43,380 bases of DNA from assembly GCA_021793675.1 (NCBI GenBank), contig JAJYSG010000007.1, forward strand, positions 14,439 through 57,818, written 5' to 3'. The notes under the pieces are model-generated. The model saw nothing but the letters and a program-made list of their open reading frames with translations. It ran no database searches and was not told where the DNA came from. This DNA comes from Actinomycetes bacterium (GTDB lineage: Bacteria > Actinomycetota > Actinomycetes > Actinomycetales > Cellulomonadaceae). The position numbers were made by a program, and so were the translations under genes. Shown piece after piece: positions 28,313-40,546 of this stretch. Each line of letters starts with the position of its first letter. Position 1 is the first letter of the stretch.

Positions 28313-28351
28313 GGGTGGACTTCCAGGCGTGCGGCGTCTGCAGGTCCACCC
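28313..28351. other. inverted repeat between topA and the oxidoreductase
   Basis: GGGTGGAC (28313-28320) and GTCCACCC (28344-28351) are perfect 8-bp arms 23 bp apart, and the interior pairs partly. It ends 13 bp before the next gene's -10 box. It could be the topA terminator or a binding site over that promoter. Confidence 0.45.
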
Positions 28352-28364
28352 GGAGCGTCCCCAC

Positions 28365-28370
28365 TAGGTT
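28365..28370 (+). promoter_or_regulatory. -10 box TAGGTT, leaderless start
   Basis: TAGGTT ends 7 nt before the ATG at 28378. The geometry favours this ATG over the in-frame ATG at 28372, which lies only one base after the box. Confidence 0.45.
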
Positions 28371-28377
28371 GATGCCC

Positions 28378-29385
28378 ATGGCACGCACCCCGGACCCCCG
28401 CACCGCACCGTCGATCCGCTGGGGGATCCTCGGCGCCGGGAACATCGCCGCGCACTTCGCGCAGACCGTCTCGGCGGGCACCCGCGCCCAGGTGGTGGCG
28501 GTCGGCTCGCGCAACCGCGACCGCGCCGAGCGGTTCGCCACCGCGCACGGGATCCCCACCACGCACGTCGGCTACCGCGACCTGGTCGAGGACCCGCAGG
28601 TGGACGTCGTCTACATCGCGACGCCGCACTCCGAGCACGCCGAGAACGCCCTGCTGGCGATCGCCGCGGGCAAGCACGTGCTGGTGGAGAAGCCCTTCAC
28701 GCGCAACGCGGCCGAGGCGGAGCGGGTCTTCGCCGCGGCGCGGGCGGCGGGCGTGTTCGTCATGGAGGCGATGTGGACGCGGTTCCTGCCGCACGTCGCC
28801 GCGCTGCACCAGGTGATCGACGACGGCGAGATCGGCGACGTCGTCAGCGTGCGGGCCGACCACGGGCAGGCGTTCGCGTTCGACCCGAAGAGCCGGCTGT
28901 TCGCGCCGGCGCTGGCCGGCGGTGCGCTGCTCGACCTCGGGGTGTACCCCGTCGCGTGGGCGCTGGACTTCCTGGGCGTGCCCGACGAGGTGAAGGCCAT
29001 GGGTCAGCTCACCGAGACGGGTGTCGACGGGCAGGTCACGATGGCGCTCCGCTACGCGGACCGCGCCCAGGCCGACCTGTCCACGACGCTGTGGGCGAAG
29101 ACCCCCACCACGTCGGACATCTCCGGGACCGAGGGCTTCATCAGGGTGGACGGCGACTTCTACGAGCCGACGAGCTTCACGGTGCGGCGCCGTGACGGGC
29201 GCAGCTGGCGGTTCGAGCAGCCGATCGCTCGGACGTTCGCCCATGAGGCCGCCGAGGTGGCCCGCTGCGTGGCGGAGCACGTGACGCAGAGCCCGCTCAT
29301 GCGGTGGGAGGACACCGTCGCGGTGCAGCGCGTCATGGACGAGGTCCGCCGCCAGGTCGGGGTGGTCTACCCCGGCGAGGAGTGA
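28378..29385 (+). CDS. Gfo/Idh/MocA-family NAD(P)-dependent oxidoreductase
   Basis: A 335-residue dehydrogenase. The Rossmann motif GILGAGNIA is near residue 15, and EKPF marks the family's conserved loop (VLVEKPFTRN). The C-terminal domain has GGALLDLGVYPVAWALDF, in which Tyr occupies the place where many members have the catalytic His, as in the dihydrodiol-dehydrogenase-like subgroup. Typical substrates are sugars, inositols or diols; the one here is unknown. The preferred ATG at 28378 follows a leaderless-type promoter. It stands alone between topA and tmk. Confidence 0.87.
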   Translation: MARTPDPRTAPSIRWGILGAGNIAAHFAQTVSAGTRAQVVAVGSRNRDRAERFATAHGIPTTHVGYRDLVEDPQVDVVYIATPHSEHAENALLAIAAGKHVLVEKPFTRNAAEAERVFAAARAAGVFVMEAMWTRFLPHVAALHQVIDDGEIGDVVSVRADHGQAFAFDPKSRLFAPALAGGALLDLGVYPVAWALDFLGVPDEVKAMGQLTETGVDGQVTMALRYADRAQADLSTTLWAKTPTTSDISGTEGFIRVDGDFYEPTSFTVRRRDGRSWRFEQPIARTFAHEAAEVARCVAEHVTQSPLMRWEDTVAVQRVMDEVRRQVGVVYPGEE

Positions 29386-31376: not shown

Positions 31377-31431
31377 CGTTGCAGGTCAACCACTAGATCA
31401 GAGGTGACCGGGACGGCGGGAGGGGGCGACC

Positions 31432-32823
31432 GTGGAGCGCAGCACGCATCCGCTCGCGGGTGCGTTGACGGCCGCCGTGGACGGGGTGGTCCGTGCCGTG
31501 CAGGCTGCGTCGGCGGGGCTGGGCAGCCTGGCGCAGGACGAGGCGCTCGAGCTGCTGCTGACCCTCGTCGCGCAGTCGGGCCGGTTGACCGTCGCCGCTG
31601 CCCGGTTGTCGACCACGGTGGACGACGACGGGATGTGGGCCACCGACGGCGCGCGCTCGTTCGCGCACTGGCTGGCGGCCCGCACGGGCATGTCCTTCGC
31701 GAAGGCCCGGGACGCCGTAACCACCGGCCGCGCGCTGCGCGACCACCTGCCGGCCACCACCGTCGCGGGGTTGGCCGGGGAGGTTGCCCTGGAGCAGGTG
31801 GCGGCGTTGGCGAAGCTGGCGCCGACCAGTGAGGCTCGCCAGACGGTGCTGGCGGCGCCGGCCGAGGAGTGCGGGGAGGAGTTCCTGCTGGCCGAGGCTC
31901 GCGTGCAGCCGGCCGACTCCTTCCGGCGGCTGGTCCGCCGCTGGGCGGCCGCCGCGGACCCGCATGCCGACGAGCGCGGTTACCGCGCGGCGTGCGAGCG
32001 GGAGTTCGTCGCGCTGGCCCCGACCTCGGACGGCTACCACCTGGCCGGGTTCCTCACCACGGAGCACGGCGCGATGCTCACCGCCGCGCTGGACGGCGTG
32101 ATGACCCCGCCGGTCCCCGACGACTCGCGCAGCTACCAGCAGCGCCGTGCCCAAGCGGTCGCCGACGTGTCCCGCCTCGTCCTCGAGCACGGCCTGGTCG
32201 GCACGGGCTCGGCGGTGCGCCCGCACCTGTCCGTCGTGGTCGACTTCGACACCCTGCGCCGCGCCGTGCAGGACGACCGCGAAGCCCCCGGGAGCGACCG
32301 CAGGGCCGACGAGGACCACCGCGGGAGCGACGAGGCCGGGACAAGCTTCCGCTGGCCGAGCGAACAGACCGGGTCCGGGTGCCTGTTCCGCCTCGCCCCG
32401 GTGGCAGACGTGGAACGGTTCGCCGTCGCCGAGGTCCTCGGCGCGGGTCCGATCCCCGCCAGCGTGCTGGCCCGGTTGGCGTGCGACAGCGAGATCAGCC
32501 GGGTCGTGTTCGGCCCCGACTCGCAGGTGATCAACGCCGGCCGGGCCGAGCGCACCTTCTCCGGTCCCCGGCGCAGGGCCGTGATCGCCCGCGACGGAAC
32601 CTGTCGCTACCCCGGGTGCACCGCGCCACCGGCGCTCGGGGAGATCCACCACGTGGAGCAATGGGCCAGGGACAACGGCGACACCGACATCAACCTCGGC
32701 ATCCTGCTGTGCTGGCACCACCACGACCTGGTCCATCGCCTGCACATCCAGATCCGCCGGTCACCTACCGGCGGCTGGTTCTTCCTCACCAGCCACGGCA
32801 CGCCCGTCGCCGCCGCCGTCTGA
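31432..32823 (+). CDS. DUF222-HNH endonuclease protein (13E12 repeat family)
   Basis: A 463-residue protein with an N-terminal helical DUF222 region (about 25-330) and a C-terminal HNH nuclease domain. The latter has CRYPGC (from about residue 391), the HH pair in GEIHHVEQW, and CWHHHDLVH. This arrangement defines the 13E12/REP13E12-like proteins that occur in many diverged copies in actinobacterial genomes. Their role is uncertain; mobility or DNA cleavage has been suggested. GTG at 31432 has GGGAGGGGG upstream. The 3' end overlaps the end of a decayed MFS gene on the opposite strand. The gene itself looks intact. Confidence 0.85.
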   Translation: MERSTHPLAGALTAAVDGVVRAVQAASAGLGSLAQDEALELLLTLVAQSGRLTVAAARLSTTVDDDGMWATDGARSFAHWLAARTGMSFAKARDAVTTGRALRDHLPATTVAGLAGEVALEQVAALAKLAPTSEARQTVLAAPAEECGEEFLLAEARVQPADSFRRLVRRWAAAADPHADERGYRAACEREFVALAPTSDGYHLAGFLTTEHGAMLTAALDGVMTPPVPDDSRSYQQRRAQAVADVSRLVLEHGLVGTGSAVRPHLSVVVDFDTLRRAVQDDREAPGSDRRADEDHRGSDEAGTSFRWPSEQTGSGCLFRLAPVADVERFAVAEVLGAGPIPASVLARLACDSEISRVVFGPDSQVINAGRAERTFSGPRRRAVIARDGTCRYPGCTAPPALGEIHHVEQWARDNGDTDINLGILLCWHHHDLVHRLHIQIRRSPTGGWFFLTSHGTPVAAAV

Positions 32824-33520
32824 CCTCCGCCGCAGCCGGGGCGGCCAGGCGGCGCCGCATGGCGAGCCGGCGGCGGTCGACGTGAGCGGGGGGTTCGCCG
32901 ACCGGCTCGGTCGTGCGCTCCTCGGCGGCTGCCTCGTCGTGCGCGGCCGCCCGCCGCCCGGGCAGCCTGCGGCAGGCGACGAGCGCGATCGCAGTGAACC
33001 CGACTGCCCGCCAGAACGCGCGGTGGAGTGCCGCCAGCGGGTCGTCGGTGACCTGGACCGTGGCGTCGAGCAGCACGGCGAGGATCGCGGTGCCGGAGGC
33101 GCCGCCCACCTGCTGGGAGATCCTGGTCAGCACCGAGGCGTGCGGCACCTCGTCGGGCCCGGTGTCGAGGTGGGCCACGGTCATCACCGGGATCGTCGCG
33201 CCGCCCGGGCCGAAGCCGTGGACGAGCAGGACCGTGACCAGTCACCACGTGCTCGTCGTCGGACCCGCGACGGCGAACGGGACCGTCGTCTGCGCGACCA
33301 GAAAAGAACGCGGCCACCGTGACGGTCCGGCGCCGATCGCGTCCGTCAACCGGCCGGCCAGCACGTGGCTGAAGATCGACCCGACCCCCTGCGGCACCAT
33401 CATGGGGCTGGCCGTCAGCGCGGTGGCGCCGCGCACCTCCTGCCAGAACGAGGGCAGCAGCAGCAGCGTGGTTCCGAGCGTCGAGGCGCCCACGACGAAC
33501 AGCGCGGCGGGCGACGAACC
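32786..33520 (-). pseudogene. decayed C-terminal half of a DHA2-type MFS drug exporter
   Basis: On the minus strand the translation keeps two recognisable MFS stretches: AALFVVGASTLGTTLLLLPSFW and further on HASVLTRISQQVGGASGTAILAVLL, both typical of the EmrB/DHA2 C-terminal half. They lie in one frame but are split by TGA at 33242-33244, exactly where TSTWW would continue as LVTVLLVHGFGPGG. Just before it (about 33299-33330) the frame reads PSRWPRSF, while the neighbouring frame gives VTVAAFF, suggesting one lost and one gained base. About 225 N-terminal residues are missing. The remaining C-terminal tail is Arg-rich and ends inside the HNH gene. No start codon or promoter remains. Confidence 0.8.
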
Positions 33521-33529
33521 CACCGCCTC

Positions 33530-33781
33530 AGCCTGGCCGCCGTGCGCCAGTCCTGGGTGGGCGGCCGCGAGCTCGGCATCGTCCACATCGTCGAGCGGGC
33601 GATCGTGCGGGGCGAGGTCGAGGCGGTGCGCGCCACGCCGCGCGCGGTCCAGGTGACCCTCGACCTGCTGCGGCACGACGTGCTCATGCAGATGGGCAGC
33701 ATCTCCGACGCCGAGGTCGTCGACCAGGTCGCCGTGCCGCTGCTCACCGGCCGCCCGCCGGAGCCGTCGCCAGCGGCGTGA
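33530..33781 (+). pseudogene. C-terminal fragment of a TetR-family regulator
   Basis: The last 80-odd residues of the open frame read like the end of a TetR-type ligand-binding domain: VRQSWVGGRELGIVHIVERA, then ATPRAVQVTLDLLRHDVLM and a VVDQVAVPLLTGR ending. No helix-turn-helix precedes it; the bases before 33530 belong to the MFS remnant on the other strand. Its frame remains open, and a GTG at 33542 could in principle start an 80-residue product, but no ribosome site is visible. Together with the MFS remnant it looks like one half of a divergent regulator-exporter pair that lost its middle. Confidence 0.7.
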
Positions 33782-33794
33782 CCGTCGCGTCCGC

Positions 33795-34922
33795 TCAGCC
33801 GCCGGCCGGCAGGCCCGCGTCGGGCAGGCTCACCGTGAACGCGGCGCCGCCCTCCGGCGCGACGCCGACGGCGATCCCACCGCCCAGCCGCTGCACCAGC
33901 CCGTGCACCAGGGACAGGCCGATGCCGACCCCCACCGGCCGCTCGTCGCGGTAGCGGGCGCCGAGCGCGCCCGGCTCGAAGGCGACCGCACAGTCCTCCG
34001 GGGTGAGCCCGGGGCCACCGTCACGCACCTCGAGCACCGCTCCGGCCGGCGTCTCCCGGGCGGCGATCACCACCGGGCGGCCTGCCGGGGTGAGCCGCAG
34101 CGCGTTCGCGACCAGGCCGTCGAGCACCTGCCGCACCCGGCCGGCGTCGGTCTGCACGACGAGCGGTCGATCGGGGCGTTCGACGACGAGCCGGGCGCCG
34201 GTCGCCTCGGCGCGGGGCGACCACGCACCCGCCGCCTGGTCGAGCAGCACGGTGAGGTCGGTGGCGGCCGGCTGGAGGCGGAAGTCGTCCGCGCCGAGGC
34301 GGGCGAGGTCGAGGAGGTCCTCGACGAGCCGTGTCAGGCGCGCCGCCTCGTCGACCACCACGCGCCCGGCCTCCCGCGCCTCGTCGCCCGTCACCACGCC
34401 GTCGGCGATGGACTCGCCGAACCCACGCACCGCCGTCAGCGGCGTGCGCAGCTCGTGGGACACCGAGAGCAGGAACCTCCGTTGCCGGGCCTCCGACGTC
34501 GCCAGCGCCCCCGCGAGGGTGTTGAGCGACTCGGCGACCTCGGCGATCTCGGGCGGCCCCTCGATCGGGACGAGGACGTCCCGGCGGCCCGCGGCCAGCT
34601 CGCCCGCGGCGGCCGCGGTCCGGCGCAGCGGCCGGGTGAGCACCTGTGCCGTCGTCGTGCCCGCGAGGAGGCCGACGACGAGCCCGGCCAGGCACCCGGT
34701 GGCCACGGCCTGATCGATCCGCCGGGTGGGGGCGACCACCGCCGCGCGCTCCTTGGCGCGCACCCGGGCCGGGTCCACGGTGCCGGAGCTCCGGATCGCG
34801 GCGAGGCTCGCCCGCTCCTCCGCGAGCACCACCCGGGCCGCCGCGAAGCCGGCCAGCGCGGCCGCTGCGAGGGCGACACCGACGCAGGTGAGCGTGATGC
34901 GCGTCGTCAGGCTCGTGCTCAT
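33795..34922 (-). CDS. two-component sensor histidine kinase
   Basis: A 375-residue kinase. The first membrane segment is about 9-30. A short extracytoplasmic loop of only about 40 residues precedes the second segment (about 74-92). A HAMP linker follows, then SVSHELRTPLTAVRGF with the phospho-accepting His (about H156). The ATPase part has VLDGLVANALRLTP (N box), RDGGPGLTPED (G1) and VGIGLSLVHGLV (G2). So short a sensor loop suggests that the signal is read in the membrane or through a partner; two exported proteins are encoded in the same operon. It lies 79 bp after the response regulator. Confidence 0.9.
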   Translation of the reverse strand: MSTSLTTRITLTCVGVALAAAALAGFAAARVVLAEERASLAAIRSSGTVDPARVRAKERAAVVAPTRRIDQAVATGCLAGLVVGLLAGTTTAQVLTRPLRRTAAAAGELAAGRRDVLVPIEGPPEIAEVAESLNTLAGALATSEARQRRFLLSVSHELRTPLTAVRGFGESIADGVVTGDEAREAGRVVVDEAARLTRLVEDLLDLARLGADDFRLQPAATDLTVLLDQAAGAWSPRAEATGARLVVERPDRPLVVQTDAGRVRQVLDGLVANALRLTPAGRPVVIAARETPAGAVLEVRDGGPGLTPEDCAVAFEPGALGARYRDERPVGVGIGLSLVHGLVQRLGGGIAVGVAPEGGAAFTVSLPDAGLPAGG

Positions 34923-35001: not shown

Positions 35002-35679
35002 TCACAGGTCGCCGCCCCGCTCGTCGGCCGCGTACCCGACGCCCCGGACCGTCCGCAGCGGGGCGCCGGCGCCGAGCTTGCCGCGCAGCTGGGCGACGTG
35101 GACGTCGACCGTGCGCCCGCTGCCGCCGCCGTACCCCCACACCGCCGAGAGCAGCTCGTCGCGCGTCCAGACCCGTCCCGGCGTCCGCAGCAGGTGGGCC
35201 AGCAGGTCGAACTCCGTCGGCGTGAGGTGGACCTCGTCCTCGCCGGCGTACACGCGGCGCCTCGTCACGTCCACGGACACGGGACCGAGGCGCAGCAGGT
35301 CGTCGTCCACCGGGCGGGCCCGCCGCAGCACGGCGTGCAGCCGCGCCACCAGCTCCCGCGGGCTGAACGGCTTGGTGACGTAGTCGTCCGCGCCCAGCTC
35401 CAGGCCGAGGATCCGGTCCACCTCGTCGTCCCGCGCCGTGACGAACAGCACCGGCGTCCGGTCGCCGCGCTCCCGCAGCCGCCGGCACACCTCGATGCCG
35501 TCCAGGCCCGGCAGCCCGATGTCGAGGATCGCCGCCACCGGCCGCCGGGTGAGGACGGCCTGGAGCGCGGCAGCGCCGTCCGCATGCGCCTCGACCCCGA
35601 ACCCGTCCCGCGTGAGGTACAGCCTCACCAGGGACGACACCGCGGGGTCGTCCTCGGCCAGCACGACGAGGCCGGGCAC
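35002..35679 (-). CDS. OmpR/PhoB-family response regulator
   Basis: A 225-residue regulator. The receiver domain has the acidic pair LAEDD, the phosphorylated Asp in AAILDIGLPG (about D53), the Thr of LFVTAR and the Lys of TKPFSPREL. The winged-helix domain has LTPTEFDLLAHLLRTPGRVWTR and the recognition region TVDVHVAQLRGKL. GTG at 35679 is chosen because GAGGAGG lies upstream and the protein then begins VPGLVVLAEDD. It follows the lipoprotein gene by 10 bp and precedes the sensor kinase. Confidence 0.92.
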   Translation of the reverse strand: MPGLVVLAEDDPAVSSLVRLYLTRDGFGVEAHADGAAALQAVLTRRPVAAILDIGLPGLDGIEVCRRLRERGDRTPVLFVTARDDEVDRILGLELGADDYVTKPFSPRELVARLHAVLRRARPVDDDLLRLGPVSVDVTRRRVYAGEDEVHLTPTEFDLLAHLLRTPGRVWTRDELLSAVWGYGGGSGRTVDVHVAQLRGKLGAGAPLRTVRGVGYAADERGGDL

Positions 35680-35689
35680 GGGCACCTCC

Positions 35690-36016
35690 TCACGAGCTGT
35701 CGGACGCGATGTCCCGGTCGACCTCGTCGGCCAGCGCGTTCGCCCCGTCGAGCGCCTGCTGGACGGCTGCCGCGCCGCCGGGAACGGCGGTCGGCCCATC
35801 TTCGCGCGTGGTGCCGGGGACGGGCGACGTGGCGGCGGCGGGCGCGCCGGGCGCCAGGGCGCCGGCCGGCCGTGCGGACCCGGTCGCGTCCGCACGGCCG
35901 CAGCCGCCCAGCGCGAGGACGACGAGCACCGCGGCGGCCGCCACCCCCGCTCGTCCCCGGGACGAGCGGGGAACGCCCCGCCCGCCCGGGCCCCGGCGGC
36001 AGCCCGGGGTGGTCAC
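35690..36016 (-). CDS. small lipoprotein in a two-component operon
   Basis: I recognise no family. The 108-residue product has an Arg-rich start, a hydrophobic segment (about 24-35) and the lipobox LALGGC (Cys about 37). The mature part is an Ala/Pro/Gly-rich linker followed by a short acidic helix (AAVQQALDGANALADEVDRDI). The GTG at 36016 overlaps the upstream stop as GTGA, and the regulator starts 10 bp downstream, so four genes are read together. A surface-anchored helix made with a two-component system could be a sensor accessory or a target; neither is shown. Confidence 0.7.
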   Translation of the reverse strand: MTTPGCRRGPGGRGVPRSSRGRAGVAAAAVLVVLALGGCGRADATGSARPAGALAPGAPAAATSPVPGTTREDGPTAVPGGAAAVQQALDGANALADEVDRDIASDSS

Positions 36017-36462: not shown

Positions 36463-36562
36463 CGGTGGCTCCTCTCAGTGGTGGTCCGATGTCGCCGACG
36501 CTGCCCCGCGCAGATGCACGGCCCGTCAGCGGAACGTTCGGACTTCGTCAAGGTCGGACGGC

Positions 36563-36568
36563 TACCGT
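36563..36568 (+). promoter_or_regulatory. -10 box TACCGT, leaderless start
   Basis: TACCGT ends 7 nt before the GTG at 36576. An in-frame GTG at 36570 is too close to the box to be translated from this promoter. An 8-bp palindrome GAACGTTC lies about 25 bp upstream. Confidence 0.5.
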
Positions 36569-36575
36569 GGTGGCC

Positions 36576-38120
36576 GTGCTGTTGACCCGTCGCCGAGCCG
36601 CTGCCGTCCTCGTCATCGCGTCGGCGGGCCTGCTGCTCGCCGGGTGCGTCGCCCCGGTGCACCAGGTGACCGCACCGACCAGCAACCCGAGCGCGCAGAC
36701 GCCGCCGGCCGCGGCGCCGGCCGGGTCGGCGAAGTTCTACACGCAGCACGTCGCCTGGTCGTCGTGCCCCCAGGGCACACAGGCCGACCAGTGCGCCACG
36801 ATCAAGGTCCCGCTCGACTGGTCGCACCCCGACGGCGCGACCATCTCGCTCGCGGTGGCGCGCGACGCGGCGACCGGCGCCGACCCCGTGGGTTCGATCC
36901 TCGTCAACCCCGGCGGCCCGGGCGCCTCGGCGATCGACTTCCTGTCCACGGCCGACACCATCGTCAGTGCCGAGGTGCGTGACGAGTACGACCTGGTCGC
37001 GTTCGATCCTCGCGGCGTCCAGCGCAGCACGCCCGTGACCTGCTACGACGGTGCGCAGATGGACCAGCTGACCGCGGCGGACTTCGACCTGAGCACGGCC
37101 GCCGGGGTCCAGCAGCAGACCGATGCGTGGGGCGCGTTCGGCAAGGCGTGCGCCGCCAAGACCGGCCCCGTGCTGGGCCACGTGGACACCGTGAGCTCGG
37201 CGCGCGACATGGACGTCGTGCGAGCGCTCGTCGGCGACCGCACGCTGGACTACCTCGGCTACTCGTACGGCACCAAGCTCGGCGCGACCTACGCCGCCCT
37301 GTACCCGACGACCGTCGGCCGCATGGTGCTGGACTCCGCGCTCGACCCGACGCTCGATGCCGACCAGATGGCGGCGGGCCAGGCCGCAGGGTTCGAGGGC
37401 GCGTTGCGGGCGTACGTGACGAACTGCCTGTCCGGCTCGCACTGTCCCCTGACCGGTCCGGTGGACCATGCGATGGCCCAGATCAAGACGATGCTCGACA
37501 GCACCCACACCAATCCGCTGCCCACCTCGTCGGGCCGCCGGCTGACGGCGCCGCTGGCGTTCACCGGGATCGCCTACCCGCTCTACTCGCAGCAGGCCTG
37601 GCCGCAGCTGACGACCGCGCTGCGCGCCGGCCTCGCCGGTGACGGCAGCGTCCTCCTCGCGCTGTCGGACGCCTACTACGACCGTGCCTCGAACGGCACC
37701 TACACGACGAACACCACCGAGGCGTTCAGCGCGATCAACTGCCTCGACCTCAAGGCCACCACCGACCTCACGCAGATGCGGGCCCAGGCGGCCGCGATCG
37801 CGAAGGTGGCTCCGACGGTCGGCGAGTTCTTCGGCTACTCCGGCACGCTGTGCGCCCAGTGGCCGGAGCCGTACGTCGGCGGCCTGACGAGCTACTCCGC
37901 CAAGGGCGCTCCGCCCATCGTGGTCATCGGCACGACGAACGACCCGGCCACCCCCTACGTCTGGGCCCAGGCGCTGGCCAAGGAGATGTCCTCCGCGGTG
38001 CTGCTGACGCACGTCGGGGAGGGGCACGGCGTGTACGGCCTCGGCAACGCGTGCGCGACGCGAGCGGTGGACGACTACTTCCTCGACGGCACCACGCCGG
38101 CGCCCGGGACGCGCTGCTGA
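36576..38120 (+). CDS. lipoprotein alpha/beta hydrolase, tripeptidyl aminopeptidase-like
   Basis: A 514-residue exported hydrolase. The signal ends LLLAGC with the lipidated Cys at about residue 24. The family pattern of actinobacterial tripeptidyl aminopeptidases follows: DQCATIKVPLDWSHPDG, the oxyanion region NPGGPGASAIDF, FDPRGVQRSTPVTC, and the nucleophile elbow GYSYGT (Ser about 230). Near the C-terminus TTNDPATP carries the acid and GEGHGVYG the catalytic His. Several conserved cysteines probably form disulfides. Family members such as mycobacterial Hip1 and Streptomyces TAP remove peptides from protein N-termini outside the cell. GTG at 36576 fits the signal sequence and the promoter. 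Confidence 0.9.
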   Translation: MLLTRRRAAAVLVIASAGLLLAGCVAPVHQVTAPTSNPSAQTPPAAAPAGSAKFYTQHVAWSSCPQGTQADQCATIKVPLDWSHPDGATISLAVARDAATGADPVGSILVNPGGPGASAIDFLSTADTIVSAEVRDEYDLVAFDPRGVQRSTPVTCYDGAQMDQLTAADFDLSTAAGVQQQTDAWGAFGKACAAKTGPVLGHVDTVSSARDMDVVRALVGDRTLDYLGYSYGTKLGATYAALYPTTVGRMVLDSALDPTLDADQMAAGQAAGFEGALRAYVTNCLSGSHCPLTGPVDHAMAQIKTMLDSTHTNPLPTSSGRRLTAPLAFTGIAYPLYSQQAWPQLTTALRAGLAGDGSVLLALSDAYYDRASNGTYTTNTTEAFSAINCLDLKATTDLTQMRAQAAAIAKVAPTVGEFFGYSGTLCAQWPEPYVGGLTSYSAKGAPPIVVIGTTNDPATPYVWAQALAKEMSSAVLLTHVGEGHGVYGLGNACATRAVDDYFLDGTTPAPGTRC

Positions 38121-39148: not shown

Positions 39149-40546
39149 CTACAGCAGGCGGGCGATGTGTCCGACGACGAGCGGCGGCCCGAGCGGCCCG
39201 GTGCCCAGCACGTCGTCGACGAACCGGCGGCCGACACGCACGCCTTCGGCTCCGGCGTCCCAGGCGTCGACGACGACCGCAGGGAAGGTCTGCCGCGGCC
39301 CGGGCAGGTCGGCCGGGTCACGGTCGATGAACGTGGTCGCGGCGCGTACGGCGCCCGACGAGCGCACCAGCTCGCGCGCCCGGAACCGCGCCTCGCCGAC
39401 CTCGCCCGGGCACGACTCGGTGCGCCGTCGACCGTCGGCGTCGATGAGCAGCACGAAGACCTCCCGGTCGAACGCCCCGGTCTCGCGCAGCAGCACCATG
39501 GCGTGGTCGAGCGCGTCGAGGGCGAACTCGTCGACGGGCGTCGCGGGAGCCACCCGGGCGGTCGGCTCGTCGTTCGCGGTGACGGGCACCGGCGCCGCCG
39601 CGCCGGGCGCCGATGGTGCGGGCAGCGGTGCCCACGGCGTGGCGGTGGGAACGGCCGGCCCGGCGACGAGGCGCTCCGGCTCGGTGACGCGGCGCTCCGG
39701 CTCGGTGACGCGGCTCTCCGGCTCGGTGGCGAGGCGCTCCGGCTCGGCGACGGGGAGCTCTCGGCGGGCGACCGGCCGTTCCAGCCCGACGAGCGGGAGC
39801 TCCCGGTCGGCGACCGGGGACGGTGCCGGGACAGCCGGTGCCGGGACAGTCGGTGCCGGGACAGCCGGCGTGGGGACGGCTGGCGTGGGGACAGCCGATG
39901 CGGGGACGGTCGACAGGGGAAGGGCCGGCGTGGGCAGGGCTGGTTGCGGCACCTCGGCGGGGGCGGCACCGCGCGTGGGCAGCACCAGGGGCGACCAGCC
40001 GGGCGTCGCGGCGACCGGCTCGTACACGGTGCGGTCGGCGGTGGCGGCGGCGACGGTGGCCGCCAGGTGCTCCTCGCCGGCGCGGGTGGCGGCGTCGTCC
40101 GGCGCCTGCCGCGGCTGCGGCACCGCGAGTCCCGAGAGGTGAGCCGCGGCGCGCGAGAGGTAGTCCGCCATCCAGTCGCGGGCGCGGGCGTCCCACCGGT
40201 CCTGGGTGTCGAGGAACGGCACCACGGGCGCATGCGGTCGCGCGAGCGACGCCACGCCGAGGGTCGGGCCGCTCGGCCCCGGCCACACCGCCCACCGGGC
40301 GCCGGACACGTGCACCGCGAGCAGGTCGCCGAGCGCGGTGGCGACCGCCTCGACGAACCCTGCCGGGGCCGGGCCACCGTGCGTGGTGACCATCGAGTCC
40401 CACAGCCAGGAGATGGCACGCGGGTCCGTCCGGTCGCACGCCGAGGCGAGCACGGCGCGCAGTCGATCGAGGTCGGCAGTCTCTTGGTAGGTCAGCTCAC
40501 GGGCGGTGACGGAGACAGGACCGCTCCACGCGGAGACCTCGATCAT
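39149..40546 (-). CDS. modular unknown protein with DUF3806-like start and repeat linker
   Basis: The product (465 aa) has three parts. Residues 1-150 include VATALGDLLAVHVSGARWAVW and resemble DUF3806-type domains in general pattern, which is a weak match made by eye. Residues 175-305 are a Pro/Ala/Val/Glu-rich linker with two tandem arrays, about nine pentapeptides of VPAPA type and four heptapeptides of VTEPERR type. Residues 335-465 form a second globular domain (FALDALDHAMVLLRETGAFDRE, then RQTFPAVVVDAWDAG) that I do not recognise. There is no signal or membrane segment, so it should be cytoplasmic. The ATG at 40546 lacks a clear ribosome site. A 26-bp palindrome lies 58 bp upstream of the start. 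Confidence 0.72.
   Translation of the reverse strand: MIEVSAWSGPVSVTARELTYQETADLDRLRAVLASACDRTDPRAISWLWDSMVTTHGGPAPAGFVEAVATALGDLLAVHVSGARWAVWPGPSGPTLGVASLARPHAPVVPFLDTQDRWDARARDWMADYLSRAAAHLSGLAVPQPRQAPDDAATRAGEEHLAATVAAATADRTVYEPVAATPGWSPLVLPTRGAAPAEVPQPALPTPALPLSTVPASAVPTPAVPTPAVPAPTVPAPAVPAPSPVADRELPLVGLERPVARRELPVAEPERLATEPESRVTEPERRVTEPERLVAGPAVPTATPWAPLPAPSAPGAAAPVPVTANDEPTARVAPATPVDEFALDALDHAMVLLRETGAFDREVFVLLIDADGRRRTESCPGEVGEARFRARELVRSSGAVRAATTFIDRDPADLPGPRQTFPAVVVDAWDAGAEGVRVGRRFVDDVLGTGPLGPPLVVGHIARLL
39668..39751 (-). repeat. four tandem 21-bp units in a coding linker
   Basis: Four units of 21 nt, each with the core CTCCGGCTCGG, run head to tail. On the minus strand they encode heptapeptides such as VTEPERR, VTEPERL and ATEPESR. 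The unit length keeps the frame. Confidence 0.8.
39823..39957 (-). repeat. about nine tandem 15-bp units in a coding linker
   Basis: Units of 15 nt beginning GTGCCGGGACAGCCG decay gradually toward the right end. On the minus strand they encode VPAPA- and VPTPA-type pentapeptides. The first three units are nearly identical, suggesting recent expansion. Confidence 0.8.

Follow-up and report, generated by a model that had tools for sequence, protein, structure and literature searches.

A remnant of a divergent TetR regulator and DHA2-family MFS exporter gene pair, probably left by one deletion across the shared control region

Results

The locus and its genes

The locus lies on contig C97 of a 1.87 Mb draft genome from the Cellulomonadaceae (103 contigs, 61.86% complete), within a window of 43,380 nucleotides, the whole stretch of DNA that was analysed. 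As listed in Table 1, the back parts of two genes occupy the gap between a DUF222/HNH gene and a two-component operon.

Table 1. Features of the relic and its neighbours, in window coordinates
Feature	Position	Strand	Basis or remark
DUF222/HNH gene, intact frame	31432..32823	+	HNH domain under Pfam cut-off
MFS exporter relic, distal piece past the in-frame stop	32786..33241	-	homology to intact relatives stops near 32939-32960
In-frame TGA within exporter relic	33242..33244	-	frame reading
MFS exporter relic, junction-side piece	33245..33526	-	first residue corresponds to about 289 of the intact relative's 497
Probable compensated frameshift	33290..33345	-	neighbouring frame fits relatives better
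Deletion junction	33526..33530		about 1240-1258 nt of relatives missing
TetR relic, C-terminal, probably ligand-binding part (TetR_C_11), without DNA-binding domain	33530..33781	+	alignment, Pfam (TetR_C_11 just under cut-off)
Histidine kinase gene, intact	33795..34922	-	89% identical in G067
Response regulator gene, intact	35002..35895	-	profile and relative match

The preliminary description of this DNA had placed C-terminal pieces of a DHA2-type MFS exporter and a TetR regulator back to back, with an in-frame TGA in the former, and both observations were confirmed. The exporter piece and the TetR piece meet at a narrow junction. The exporter frame runs from the junction to a stop codon at 32786-32788 with the TGA inside it, and the TetR frame ends at a stop codon at 33779-33781. 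Aligned to an intact MFS relative, the exporter relic (33523-32960) covers residues 290-475 of 497 at 46% identity; against two intact relatives the identity was 46-49% over 172-188 residues. The TetR relic (33542-33751) aligns to residues 125-197 of the 202 residues of an intact TetR protein (42% identity). Past the end of its homology the exporter frame has an unmatched tail, of which window positions 32786-32823 overlap the 3' end of the HNH gene on the opposite strand.

Both exporter pieces matched Pfam MFS_1 below its cut-off of 33.4 bits, one with 25.3 bits (E 9.1e-06) and the other with 16.8 bits (E 0.0034). The 16.8-bit match covers profile positions 89-188, not the C-terminal part of the profile. 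The NCBIfam EmrB/DHA2 model TIGR00711 matched the pieces weakly (E 1.6e-06 and 5.4e-06); their scores of 25.4 and 27.2 bits fall below its cut-off of 230.2 bits, while the intact relative P0001 lies above it with 324.2 bits. By these profiles the exporter relic is a fragment of a DHA2 (EmrB-type) MFS member and not itself a member. The TetR relic narrowly missed the Pfam TetR_C_11 cut-off of 32 bits: it scored 31.5 bits (E 2.5e-07) over positions 46-110 of the 113 in the profile. TetR_N, the N-terminal helix-turn-helix domain that is present in the intact regulator P0003, was not found in the TetR relic by Pfam.

A compensated frameshift in the exporter remnant, also proposed earlier, is plausible. 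About ten codons read better by eye in the neighbouring frame, which is weaker support than that for the TGA. Of all that was observed here the frameshift is the least secure; it probably reflects two small compensating indels.

Intact pairs in related genomes

If the two fragments came from unrelated genes, their relatives should lie apart in other genomes, and this was the result that the preliminary description had named as refuting its reading. It did not occur. Among 81 genomes of the genus, 12 homologues matched the intact exporter P0001 at E 1e-90; for the intact regulator P0003, a search at E 1e-25 gave 16 places, spread over 15 genomes. A TetR gene was adjacent and divergent at 10 of the 12 exporter homologues (G012, G042, G078, G020, G077, G002, G023, G076, G057 and G082:C16). 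The exceptions were G005, where exporter and regulator lie about 22 kb apart, and G004, in which no TetR of the relic's family was found at E 1e-25. When the distal exporter piece was searched against 396 genomes of the order at E 1e-20, five genomes besides its own matched (best match 53% over 97 residues), and all five carried an upstream divergent TetR gene of the same family; four of them lie outside the genus and one was already in the genus set. The TetR search, likewise of 396 genomes of the order, gave at E 1e-11 one match outside the genome itself, in G002 (45%). For two intact relatives, the distance between the starts of the pair's longest open frames was 16 and 73 nt, although the true start of the exporter of G012 is perhaps further in.

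The relic has no close intact counterpart (40-50% identity for the MFS part and 29-45% for the TetR part). Of the 52 columns in which the 12 intact homologues all agree, the exporter relic breaks 11. No other row has so large a share, and the shifted stretch may account for part of the count. Two intact outliers approach it (G076, 10 of 62; G082:C16, 8 of 60), and for the TetR relic the figure is only 1 of 12, so that the excess of substitutions is modest evidence. Congruent trees for the two halves were considered as evidence and dropped: the four trees, two per gene, left the relic unplaced, so that phylogeny does not show that the two halves share an origin. Codon-position G+C is still coding-like in the TetR relic and the distal exporter piece. 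The invariant-column, tree and composition results do not contradict a relic and do not add much.

The same site in relatives

The corresponding site was sought through the neighbouring histidine kinase (E 1e-60), which was found in 10 of the 81 genus genomes, its own included. Seven of the nine other kinase sites were fetched at length, and G077 and G042 with 1500 bases on each side. The expectation that an intact divergent pair would lie here in relatives was not borne out. No intact pair of the relic's family stood beside the kinase in the nine other genomes (within the 1500-base flanks in G077 and G042), and the pairs of G077 and G042 sit on contigs other than that of the kinase. In three genomes (G082, G068 and G084), however, the gap separating HNH gene and kinase contains an intact TetR gene of the relic's family and no exporter, with the same order of neighbours on both sides. 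These exporter-less genes (L035:7208-7816, L036:9072-9860 and L037:9061-9732) keep over their starts the palindrome described below.

Because three relatives carry an intact TetR of the same family there, the site is right for the TetR gene. The TetR relic is 42-45% identical to the site TetR proteins of G082, G068 and G084, in which the kinase is 71-72% identical, and the site TetR proteins are 43-58% identical to the four intact-pair regulators with which they were compared. Position suggests, and does not prove, that the site TetR is orthologous to the relic.

The nearest relative by kinase, G067 (Cellulomonas sp. 73-92; 89%), is listed in the genus of the relic's genome, which is therefore Cellulomonas, and has neither a TetR nor an exporter at the site. 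Its site is filled by a 658-codon gene (L034:9336-11312), which we take from its sequence to be an NADH-dependent flavin oxidoreductase, and holds no recognisable relic. A sister remnant in the G067 gap between HNH gene and kinase was considered, and only weak DNA matches were obtained (best E 0.004, three of that size), which we took as chance. G063 has a different intact divergent TetR/MFS pair beside a homologous kinase, in the same orientation (L038:4549-6773). This pair was rejected as the parent of the relic: the G063 exporter shares 29% identity with P0001, and its match to the relic reached no better than E 0.033. The site thus varies among relatives.

A palindrome between the divergent genes

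Many intact pairs contain between their divergent genes the palindrome AAGATNCA-N4-TGNATCTT. One copy lies over the regulator start, and some 44 bases from it, towards the exporter, there is another. Both copies, counted in the same sequences from which the pattern was derived, were present with at most three mismatches in 10 of the 14 intact pairs examined; two of the remaining four had one degenerate copy and two had none in the stretch read. Twin palindromes were seen in the intergenic regions of loci L041-L043, L048-L052, L102 and L103. The regulator-side palindrome was kept at all four regulator loci without an adjacent exporter (G082, G084, G068 and G005), and G082 and G068 had an additional, weaker second match.

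The pattern was also scanned across ten genomes of our choosing (the relic's own, G067 and eight carrying this regulator). All ten sites with no or one mismatch lay in front of this TetR gene. Matches with two mismatches were found elsewhere too, as were matches to a backward control pattern, up to three per genome. We predict that the palindrome is the operator of this TetR subfamily. The palindrome was absent from the window at up to three mismatches, where 0.07 matches are expected, so that this absence is informative only because the relatives have it. It was likewise absent at up to two mismatches from the assembled part of the draft genome that holds the relic.

Extent of the deletion and alternative histories

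When the first bases of the two relics were mapped onto four intact pairs (G012, G002, G023 and G020), they fell 1240, 1258, 1258 and 1257 nt apart, respectively, and in all four the missing stretch takes in the intergenic control region. The claim that a deletion had crossed the shared control region of a divergent pair is supported. That it was one deletion is the simplest history, because no more than about five bases separate the ends of the two homologies and the missing size is nearly constant; it is a reading that falls short of proof against stepwise loss. Judged against intact homologues, both genes carry the disabling lesions of a pseudogene, in that both 5' parts are gone and the exporter part holds an in-frame TGA.

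We consider it highly probable that the relic is the dead remnant of a divergent TetR regulator and DHA2-family MFS exporter, cut down by one deletion of about 1.25 kb. Such a deletion, presumably a single event, would have begun inside the exporter gene, spanned the intergenic control region that both genes share, and ended within the regulator gene. The exporter would thereby have lost its front, about residues 1-289 of some 497, and the regulator its DNA-binding half, about residues 1-121 of some 202; the shared promoter region would have gone along with the predicted operators. Neither back half retains its start region; in the exporter half there is also a stop, probably together with a pair of small indels that compensate each other. 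We infer that the TGA arose later than the deletion, as the earlier account of continued decay implied, and that probably nothing functional is made from what remains.

Separate deletions, or a larger loss in several steps, could have truncated each gene and reached the same end point by chance. The variability of the site lends this some weight, with a TetR gene without exporter in three relatives and neither gene in the nearest one. Against it, the two homologies end no more than about five bases apart, and a single deletion requires just one event; we regard stepwise loss as unlikely.

It is somewhat less likely again that about 1.25 kb was lost at an assembly or binning join and that the pair is intact in the organism. 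The draft is fragmented and incomplete, as given above, which leaves room for such a fault. However, the frames on either side are clean, and it is the exporter half that has the in-frame stop and, probably, the shifted stretch. Compared with G067, five long flanking frames (28318-29382, 31423-32799, 33816-34922, 35005-35781 and 36498-38117) are free of stops, and local sequence quality therefore looks good. The same comparison gave 10 rows with one to three stops. Most of these coincide with genes that have a clean reading in a different frame, and we attribute them to G+C-rich DNA read on the wrong strand or in the wrong frame; the row at 40080-40484 stands apart from them, in a place with several open frames. 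The missing halves were not found on other contigs, though about 38% of the genome lies outside the draft. A search of the draft for the exporter front half returned none, only eight MFS matches at no more than 39% identity in open frames of 497-875 aa, and the search for the TetR front half gave seven matches at no more than 41% and no orphan. Since the flanking frames are clean and no orphan front halves were found, a sequence fault confined to the relic is unlikely.

It is very improbable that the leftover frames are still in use, for example that the ligand-binding half of TetR, now without its DNA-binding half, is expressed and works as a small protein that dimerises or sequesters ligand. 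The TetR piece is an uninterrupted 83-residue frame from 33530 with a third-position G+C of 0.988 and the single broken column noted above, but its promoter region and DNA-binding domain are gone and none of the 14 relative regulators aligned has the truncated form.

Discussion

Divergent pairs of a TetR-family regulator and an efflux gene have as their paradigms, as outlined in PMC4482099, TetR of E. coli with its efflux pump and QacR of S. aureus. The intact relatives described here resemble the paradigms as outlined there, being likewise arranged back to back over a short shared control region with a palindrome. The relic, in contrast, consists of two 3' halves only and has lost the palindrome, the shared promoter region and the DNA-binding domain.

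With its truncated homologues, stop codon and small indels, the relic also resembles, as a general kind, the bacterial pseudogenes that arise by deletion and later point decay (PMC522871, PMC2916853). It differs in that one deletion would have disabled two divergent genes, and is otherwise ordinary. It is an ordinary deletion pseudogene pair, of a kind already known.

The relic leaves the general picture unchanged. It offers a clean example of how one deletion over a shared promoter region may remove a regulator and its target together. As a modest addition, the comparison with intact relatives reveals a conserved palindrome, which is an obvious candidate for the operator that this TetR subfamily binds.
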